The position numbers were made by a program, and so were the translations under genes. From Candidatus Planktophila versatilis (GTDB lineage: Bacteria; Actinomycetota; Actinomycetes; Nanopelagicales; Nanopelagicaceae), in contig NZ_CP016774.1 in the NCBI RefSeq assembly GCF_002288105.1, positions 620,001-684,000 on the forward strand: a stretch of DNA of 64,000 bases, given 5' to 3'. Positions within the stretch are counted from its first letter, which is position 1, and each line of letters starts with the position of its first letter. Positions 47,769-49,645 of the stretch are shown piece after piece. The notes beneath the pieces were generated by a model. That model did no database searches, was not told where the DNA came from, and saw only the letters and a program-made list of their open reading frames with translations.

Positions 47769-48029
47769 TTAAGCAGTTGGCTCAAGATTTTCGATTGTCA
47801 GCAAACCTTCGTTAATCTCACGAAGTGCAATCGATAGTGGCTTCTCGTGAACGTGTGTGTCCACAAGTGGTCCCACGTACTCAAGAAGGCCTTCACCTAA
47901 TTGTGAATAGTAAGCATTAATCTGACGTGCACGCTTTGCAGCATAGAGAACCAGTGAATACTTTGATCCAGCCTTATCGAGAAGCTCATCGATAGGTGGG
48001 TTAGTGATTCCGTCCATGTGTGCACTCAT
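47769..48029 (-). CDS. rpoZ: RNA polymerase omega subunit
   Basis: Small RNA polymerase subunit that helps assemble beta prime. The 86-residue protein contains the conserved core [22 protein letters not shown] followed by the family's C-terminal helix (residues 13-34 for the core). ATG 48029 is supported by AGGAG seven bases upstream. It sits between the mIHF-gmk fusion and coaBC, the usual gmk-rpoZ-coaBC order. Confidence 0.94.
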
Positions 48030-48061: not shown

Positions 48062-48934
48062 CTAGGCAGATGCCAATTCTATCAGGCTGGCAACCACCTT
48101 CTCGACCTCGTCATTTACCAGGACTTTATCGAAGAAAGAGGCTGCAGCGAGCTCTTCCTGCGCTAAGGCTAGACGTGAGGCCCTGCGTTCTGCGCTATCA
48201 GTGCCGCGGCCTTCTAAGCGCGAGACCAACTCCTCCCAACTAGGTGGTTCGAGAAAGACCAGTACTGACTCCGGAATCTTTTCCTTCACCTGTTTGGCTC
48301 CCTCAATCTCGATCTCCAGAAGAACACTTTGTCCAGCACTCAGTGCGGTTTCCACTGGTAATCGTGGTGTTCCATAACGAGCTCCAGCAAATTCGGCCCA
48401 TTCTAGAAACTCATTGTTCTTAACTGCTGCATCAAATTGCGTTGCAGTTAAGTAGTGGTAGTCAACACCCGCAACTTCATTAAATCTTGCCGGACGAGTT
48501 GTCGCAGAGACAATGACAACAAAATCAGAGGCTTCCCGTAACTTCTTGGCGACTGTGCTCTTGCCTACTCCCCCAGGACCAGAGAGAACTATCAGCTTTC
48601 CTCTGCGCAGTGATGTCGGCAATTCAAATTCCTTTAGTAGCGCTGCTCGTTGGTAGCGTCCTAGCCCTTGAATCCGCCTCGTGCTGGAGATGTCAAGTTT
48701 TTCAAGTAACGCTTTACCGCGAATTTTACCCACACCACTCTTTGATTCCACCATCTCAAGAACTCGCATCTTGGCAATCACTTCATTGCTCTGAGCTAAA
48801 GCGATAACCTCAGAAATACTCAATTCACCACTTTTGATTCGAGATTTCACTGCAGAGCGCTCTTGTCTAGAAGCTTTCGCTTTCGCCAGGGCGCTAGCAC
48901 GCTCGGCGGGAGTTAGTTGCGGCGGGGTACCCAT
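48062..48934 (-). CDS. mihF-gmk: Fusion of actinobacterial integration host factor (mIHF) and guanylate kinase
   Basis: A 290-residue two-domain protein. Residues 1 to about 103 match mIHF, the DNA-bending nucleoid protein of actinobacteria (start [28 protein letters not shown]; helix-two-turn-helix [25 protein letters not shown]). From about residue 110 it is guanylate kinase, GMP to GDP, with P-loop GPGGVGKST at 119-127 and GMP-site segments [15 protein letters not shown] and [13 protein letters not shown]. Only about six residues link them, with no stop or start signal between. In mycobacteria mihF and gmk are adjacent separate genes. Start ATG 48934; no clear Shine-Dalgarno. Confidence 0.93.
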
Positions 48935-48943
48935 GTTTTTAAC

Positions 48944-49645
48944 TTACTGCAGAATATCTTCAGCGATTGTGCGCGCAGCGGTAGTCATAGCTTGCGCGCC
49001 TTGCGCCCACGCCTGTGTGATTGGACGTCCGATAACAACGTAGCTTGCGCCGGCGGCAATCGCTGCTCGAGGAGTCATTGTTCGCTTCTGATCATCACCT
49101 CCAGAACTACCTTCGGGGCGAACTCCAGGTGTGATGATCTGTGGTTCATTTCCAACGGCAGATCGGATTGCTGCAATCTCAAGCGGTGAACAGACGATGG
49201 CGCGAGCACCAGCTTCGGTAGACATCTTGGCAAGTGCAACCGCGCTCTCAAGTGCGTTATTTGCGAACCCAATTTCAAAGAGATCCTCCTCCGAAAGCGA
49301 AGTAAGGATCGTTACTGCCGTGACATCGGTAGTCGGAAGCGCTTGTACTGCCGCCGAAATCATCGCGCGTCCACCAGATGCATGAACGGTGAGGAATCTT
49401 GGCTTCAATGATTGAACCGCGGTCGCAGCAGCTCCCACTGTGTGTGGAATGTCATGCAGTTTCAAATCTAGGAAAATATCAGAATCGGTCACACCTTTAA
49501 TACGCCTGACCCCTTCATGGCCGAAGGTGAGGAAAAATTCAAGACCCAACTTATAGACACTGACATGATCCTGGGTTGCCTCTATCCAACGTTGCGCCGT
49601 ATCTAAATCCTGTGTATCAACCGCAAGAACTATCGGCGCTTTCAT
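48944..49645 (-). CDS. pyrF: Orotidine 5'-phosphate decarboxylase (short, type 1 form)
   Basis: Converts OMP to UMP, the last step of de novo pyrimidine synthesis. The 233-residue TIM barrel has the catalytic DLKLHDIPH motif (Asp60, Lys62, Asp65) and IITPGVRPEGSS near the phosphate site. This is the short type 1 subfamily; many actinobacteria, including M. tuberculosis, carry the longer type 2 form. Its ATG overlaps the pyrD stop as ATGA. Confidence 0.94.
   Translation of the reverse strand: MKAPIVLAVDTQDLDTAQRWIEATQDHVSVYKLGLEFFLTFGHEGVRRIKGVTDSDIFLDLKLHDIPHTVGAAATAVQSLKPRFLTVHASGGRAMISAAVQALPTTDVTAVTILTSLSEEDLFEIGFANNALESAVALAKMSTEAGARAIVCSPLEIAAIRSAVGNEPQIITPGVRPEGSSGGDDQKRTMTPRAAIAAGASYVVIGRPITQAWAQGAQAMTTAARTIAEDILQ

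Follow-up and report, generated by a model that had tools for sequence, protein, structure and literature searches.

A fusion of mIHF to guanylate kinase in Candidatus Planktophila versatilis and its occurrence among actinobacteria

Introduction

The three arginines of the RR-x-R basic motif of the nucleoid protein mIHF have a role in DNA binding. We take this motif to be positions 170, 171 and 173 in the 190-residue numbering of mIHF. For Mycobacterium tuberculosis, passages of PMC6155035 state that mIHF starts at residue 86, that mihF is essential and very abundant, that gmk lies directly downstream of mihF, and that in work on mihF both gmk and rpoZ were supplied alongside because of polar effects. 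In addition, according to passages of PMC10028186, IHF of M. smegmatis is essential and little of it is needed for growth.

The closest described relatives of the protein studied here are separate proteins. mIHF (Rv1388) of M. tuberculosis and sIHF (SCO1480) of Streptomyces coelicolor have the same domain, end to end, as the front of the fusion, but they are stand-alone proteins of about 105 residues in which the third arginine of the motif is present. Likewise, Gmk (Rv1389) of M. tuberculosis, the top structural match of the fusion, is a stand-alone enzyme. Furthermore, mihF and gmk are annotated as separate genes in Tsukamurella and Collinsella records.

One annotated gene with the same architecture was found in the public records, namely gmk of Microbacterium sp. 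NIBRBAC000506063 (WP_223172673.1, NZ_CP072877.1). Like the gene in the window (the whole stretch of 64,000 nucleotides of Candidatus Planktophila versatilis analysed in this study), it codes for IHF and guanylate kinase and lies between pyrF and rpoZ. However, its IHF half is far more divergent (66 bits vs 133 bits for the window with the same profile), it is annotated solely as guanylate kinase, and Fic genes, two in number, intervene before rpoZ, unlike in the window. Two further features of this record are that a 465-kb replicon labelled plasmid bears the core genes around gmk (L109, 5038-8479) and that pyrF is annotated as two pieces directly before the fusion. UniProt presumably contains such long guanylate kinases as well. 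The architecture is therefore already in public records, though it is undescribed in the literature that we searched: no paper describing an mIHF-guanylate kinase fusion was found there, subscription papers being mostly outside the coverage.

Structure of the fusion gene

The fusion of mIHF to guanylate kinase in the window is real. An earlier note, made from the letters alone, had described a single reading frame with both domains complete. This was borne out, but the gene lies on the minus strand, and the domains span residues 5-103 (IHF) and 112-288 (guanylate kinase) (Table 1). NF041260 (actinobacterial IHF, equivalog domain) matched the former stretch with 110.5 bits against a cut-off of 60, TIGR03263 (guanylate kinase, equivalog) matched the latter with 205.5 bits against a cut-off of 160.45, and the Pfam search was concordant in finding both domains. 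Actinobacterial IHF is a small stand-alone nucleoid protein, whereas this frame runs on into guanylate kinase. Judged by its sequence, the IHF domain belongs to the NF041260 family, but its architecture does not.

Table 1. Features of the fusion locus, in positions of the window
Feature	Position	Strand	Remarks
mIHF-guanylate kinase fusion gene	48062..48934	-	290 aa, ATG start, stop 48062-48064; coding codons without stop 48065-48934 (290 codons)
Actinobacterial IHF (H2TH) domain, residues 5-103	48626..48922	-	NF041260 110.5 bits; chains 4itq, 6tob
RRIQG, residues 86-90; RR-x-R motif with third basic residue replaced by Gln89	48665..48679	-	alignments
Linker, residues 104-111	48602..48625	-	pLDDT <50 at 106-109
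Candidate internal start: AGGA, 7 nt, TTG (residue 105)	48620..48633	-	not conserved
Guanylate kinase domain, Pfam stretch residues 112-287	48074..48601	-	TIGR03263 205.5 bits; 1znw
P-loop GPGGVGKST, residues 119-127	48554..48580	-	sequence
pyrF-like upstream neighbour	48944..49645	-	ends 9 bases before fusion start; block conserved
rpoZ (RNA polymerase omega), downstream neighbour	47769..48029	-	Pfam PF01192

The guanylate kinase half keeps the P-loop and the near-invariant residues of its family. For instance, the columns conserved at 90% or more in an alignment of 27 rows include G124, K125, S143, T145, R147, R150, Y159, Y187, R239, R243, R254 and N274. The genome of the window is a single 1.33-Mb contig, and it contains one match to the fusion protein, one to NF041260, one to guanylate kinase and one to HU. 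GMP kinase activity of the fusion would be expected, because this is the only gmk found in the genome.

The gene order carB-pyrK-pyrD-pyrF-mihF-gmk-rpoZ-coaBC-metK-priA-def was kept in the loci examined of family f1 (Nanopelagicaceae, the family of the window) and family f34; the exceptions are genes truncated at the end of a contig or not picked up by the search, as well as mihF in genera g58 and g105. Apart from rpoZ, the gene names of this block are putative and come from our reading of the proteins, with annotated homologues backing pyrF, metK and priA.

The predicted model of the fusion had a mean pLDDT of 90.1 and a pTM of 0.60, with pLDDT below 50 at linker residues 106-109. It reads as two separate folded domains with a disordered linker and no fixed arrangement. 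The top Foldseek match to the model was Gmk 1znw of M. tuberculosis (48% identity), and the best 50 matches listed were all guanylate kinases. The nearest solved chains were sIHF 4itq and mIHF 6tob for the front half, aligned over fusion residues 5-103 and 4-103, respectively, and guanylate kinases for the back half. In addition, the length of the linker varied from 4 to 19 residues among the fusions.

Conservation of the fusion in the genus

A survey of the genus covered 111 genomes, including that of the window, and 103 of them had a match. The fusion was uninterrupted in 102 of these 103 genomes, in which the query was spanned from residue 1-4 to residue 287-290 with no internal stop. The 103rd genome (G609) gave a weak match (1.3e-14), and the eight genomes with no match are drafts that are at most 83% complete. 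A genome of the same species carries the fusion with 99% identity. In the named collection, the closest relative was a Candidatus Planktophila MAG from Lake Baikal (L116, 96% identity), and L113 (Candidatus Nanopelagicaceae) was 63% identical. Because 102 genomes of the genus, the same-species genome among them, carry the same fusion and span the query without a stop, misassembly or frameshift was ruled out as its cause, and the chance that an assembly or sequencing artefact joined two genes is negligible.

Distribution in the class and the phylum

To estimate how widely the fusion occurs, 394 genomes of the class Actinomycetes were surveyed, and 384 had a match. The class counts were taken from the matches listed and from 13 one-match genomes that lacked a listed row spanning the query; these 13 were inspected individually, and none of them was fused. 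Genomes with two matches were taken as unfused, and the sequences of 41 distinct unfused domains, drawn from 27 groups, confirmed this. In f1, the fusion was found in 36 of 41 genomes (21 of genus g1, 7 of g25, 3 of g26, 4 of g27 and 1 of g29), and the five unfused genomes belong to g28, g30 and g31. All 20 genomes of f36 were fused. This family is called Microbacteriaceae-like on the basis of its protein L059, which matches the Microbacterium sp. record with 63% identity. A stop-free spanning row was found in 19 of the 20, and G203, which is broken by contig ends but has one piece crossing the junction, was counted as fused. Meanwhile, the fusion was present in 2 of 17 genomes of f34, both of genus g94, and six other f34 genomes (g58 and g105) have a guanylate kinase and no IHF match.

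The phylum survey covered 396 genomes, 390 of which had a match. In at least 53 genomes of other classes, mihF and gmk share a reading frame and are separated by one to three stops; the separation is a single stop in at least 48 of these. No fusion was seen among the matches listed for other classes. However, one of the 26 other-class genomes that had one match and no listed row, and that were inspected individually, was fused (G854, locus L268, family f106, genus g312). The IHF half of this fusion is barely recognisable (28 bits), and the arginine motif was not found in it. Its family mate G940 is unfused. The search for the mIHF-Gmk architecture across actinobacteria, which the earlier note had proposed as a check, thus found it in f1, f36, f34 and another class (G854). 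The same note had described separate neighbouring genes in mycobacteria and streptomycetes, and the two genes are indeed separate neighbours in M. tuberculosis and in the majority of the other families sampled in the class.

There are also genomes in which mIHF was not detected. In f68 (five genomes), f85 (three), f83 (one) and f89 (one), no IHF was detected up to about 1.5 kb away from gmk. In addition, neither an mIHF next to gmk nor an NF041260 match was found for L071, L072, L074, L079, L082 and L084 (f34, g105 and g58), for L073, L075 and L080 (f5, of which one draft is 70% complete) and for L077 (G163, f33). These ten genomes seem to represent lineages from which a protein that is essential to mycobacteria has disappeared. 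In G172 (f39), there was no NF041260 match, and gmk lies at a contig end.

Some other loci were noted during the surveys. L302, L303 and L304 (G949, G858 and G862) have an mIHF match and no guanylate kinase match to the fusion query. The gmk match of L088 with its adjoining matches (G117, f33 g62) is split over two frames, possibly by a frameshift or an assembly error. Carriage of the fusion by phages was not seen, as none of the 59 matching records of the phage collection covers 80% of the query.

Origins of the fusion

A phylogenetic tree of six flanking proteins was constructed using FastTree, with G854 left out. f36, f34 and f1 formed separate clades in this tree, the deep backbone of which is weak (0.0-0.58). 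Unfused g31 and g28 were the first branches within f1 (support 1.0), and fused g94 paired with unfused g108 inside f34. Separate fusions are the simpler reading, because unfused members are basal in the fused clades. By parsimony, and with G854 counted as a further case, we propose at least four origins of the fusion from an ancient mihF-gmk gene pair. Furthermore, unfused g30 grouped with fused g26, g27 and g29 (support 0.856), which leaves two histories for f1: the genes fused twice, or they fused once and were split again once. In L231 (G473, f1 g30), mihF and gmk are in the same frame and are parted solely by a TAA and an immediate GTG start.

The earlier note had also suggested that the fusion may only be a by-product of streamlining. 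This suggestion was not supported, since the fusion is present in 20 of 20 f36 genomes at 2.8-4.3 Mb, and some f1 members of 1.2-1.6 Mb (g28 and g30) are unfused. Streamlining is neither necessary nor sufficient for the fusion, and it was ruled out as a general cause.

Selection, evolutionary rates and motif residues

The dN/dS ratios were calculated by the Nei-Gojobori method on short sequences. Between the window and L116, L110 and L021, they were 0.069, 0.074 and 0.103 for the mIHF half vs 0.029, 0.031 and 0.028 for the GMK half. For the more distant L111, dN/dS was equal in both halves (0.041 and 0.045, at a dS of about 3), which means that not every pair shows the weaker constraint on IHF. 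In six pairs beyond the distance of L111, dS of the IHF half was saturated. These low ratios argue that purifying selection is acting on both halves, and they agree with the statement of the earlier note that neither domain is visibly decaying.

On a fixed tree, the IHF/GMK branch-length ratio of the fused groups was 1.29, 1.25 and 1.36 in three groups of f1, 1.92 in f36 and 1.53 in g94 of f34. The unfused sister groups had ratios of 1.29 (g30) and 1.77 (f34), and the other unfused genomes had ratios of 0.94 (eight genomes) and 0.72 (g28 with g31). Acceleration of IHF caused by the fusion is therefore not supported: the unfused sister groups are accelerated too, and the constraint on mIHF seems to have been loosened before the fusion, not because of it.

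For the motif residues, we chose a sample of 136 IHF loci, which gave 131 distinct domains after identical ones were dropped (90 fused and 41 unfused; G854 excluded). Motif positions 1 and 2 were RR, KR or RK in all 90 fused domains and RR in all 41 unfused domains. The third position was basic in only 1 of 90 fused domains (L020, Lys) vs 35 of 41 unfused domains; in the window, the first two arginines are kept and the third position is Gln. The six unfused domains with a non-basic third position belong to g30 (four) and f34 (two; g78/g90), and this position was basic in 29 of 29 unfused domains outside f1 and f34 in the class sample. In other classes, the motif was recognised in 21 unfused loci, and 7 of these have Q or G at this position. 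We therefore dropped loss of the third arginine as a marker of fusion. Because unfused relatives in g30, f34 and other classes share it, the loss neither results from the fusion nor is confined to it, and the alignments indicate a trait of the lineages near the fusions. A literature search for mIHF with R173 found no paper.

The net charge of the IHF half was +8.2 in fused f1, +9.3 in f36 and +7.5 in unfused domains. The NF041260 scores varied among genomes, from about 141 bits in two unfused genomes to 114 bits in the window, 83-87 bits in g26, 76-81 bits in g94 of f34 and 56-78 bits in f36, in which one of five genomes fell below the cut-off.

Discussion

We consider it fairly probable that this is a fixed fusion producing a bifunctional protein, with the kinase passively tethered to the nucleoid and the IHF half somewhat relaxed. 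An ancient gene pair of mihF followed by gmk would have lost the stop that separated the two genes. In the resulting single chain, a short flexible linker would join an H2TH DNA-binding domain at the N-terminus to the only guanylate kinase of the cell, and each domain would most likely work largely like its stand-alone relative. The kinase would be carried on DNA, and the two activities would be fixed at 1:1 by translation. From these results we infer DNA binding, kinase activity, a location on the nucleoid and an absence of processing, as well as, by parsimony, the direction of change. A guanylate kinase sitting on the nucleoid is plausible. DNA binding by the fused IHF half may be weakened, as 89 of the 90 fused domains lack a basic residue at the third motif position.

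The fusion was probably tolerated where mIHF no longer needed to be separately dosed and very abundant, rather than selected for targeting, because mIHF, measured against the kinase, changes more quickly in the fused groups and in their unfused sister groups than it does in ordinary unfused lineages. If small amounts of IHF suffice, locking its dose with that of an enzyme could be tolerable. It is unlikely that the fusion is instead an adaptation for targeting, in which GMP would be phosphorylated on the chromosome, linking the supply of GDP and GTP to the synthesis of DNA or RNA, or in which guanine nucleotides would alter DNA binding. Such an adaptation would agree with the four or more origins by parsimony, with the presence of the fusion in all sampled genomes of one family (f36), and with purifying selection on both halves. 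In addition, the genomes of other classes (at least 48) that are one stop codon short of fusion yet unfused suggest that fusion does not seem simply free. However, the linker is short, variable in length and disordered, no domain interface is seen in the model, and the IHF half is faster-evolving than in ordinary unfused lineages. Selected nucleoid targeting would be the striking version. Its full form would require that a nucleoid-anchored kinase evolved at least four times for local GDP/GTP control, that DNA binding and the state of the kinase interact, and that mIHF turned into a chromosome anchor, and we regard this as quite doubtful.

It is likewise improbable that the IHF half is a relaxing, non-functional remnant that is heading to loss and is kept only because an essential enzyme follows it in the same frame. 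The non-basic third position, the fall of the NF041260 score from unfused genomes to f36, the lack of any NF041260 match in six f34 genomes (g58 and g105) and three f5 genomes, and the barely recognisable IHF half of G854 would fit a remnant. However, the dN/dS of mIHF is only 0.07-0.10 among the close relatives of the window, f1 keeps the positive charge and most other conserved IHF residues, and some unfused mIHFs of other classes are also found without the third basic residue. A further rival is that an internal start or proteolysis in the linker frees the guanylate kinase, so that the long frame would in effect act as two coupled genes. The junctions of 53 fused f1 loci (a few of them near-identical), 7 f36 genes and 2 f34 genes were scanned. 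An in-frame ATG, GTG or TTG was present in the junction of 44 of the 53 f1 loci, and a start codon with a Shine-Dalgarno-like 4-mer was present in 18 of the 53, compared with 11.4 (sd 2.5) in synonymous shuffles. The value of 18 was reached in 2 of 300 shuffles, but the 53 loci are related and do not represent 53 independent events. The window itself has a candidate (AGGA, 7 nt, TTG at residue 105), and the linker is disordered in the model. However, 9 of the 53 f1 loci lack any in-frame start codon in the junction, and a junction start with a Shine-Dalgarno-like 4-mer was found in none of the 7 f36 and 2 f34 genes. Lack of the 4-mer is not decisive, because the rule misses real starts: it marked the junction ATG in only two of five unfused f1 genes used as a control. 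The hidden internal start, which the earlier note had named as a finding that would count against the fusion, was thus ruled out as a conserved device and kept as a candidate in the window. Extra free kinase may be made in some lineages, and we give a low probability to two separate products as the general explanation.

In whole lineages, mIHF occurs solely as the leading part of a metabolic kinase, and other lineages are without a detected mIHF. Both kinds of lineages are natural experiments on the stability of the mihF-gmk pair and on whether the essential role of mIHF depends on its dosage. They also bear on a possible siting of nucleotide supply at the nucleoid. In the genomes that carry the fusion, the plain annotation 'guanylate kinase' hides a nucleoid protein.
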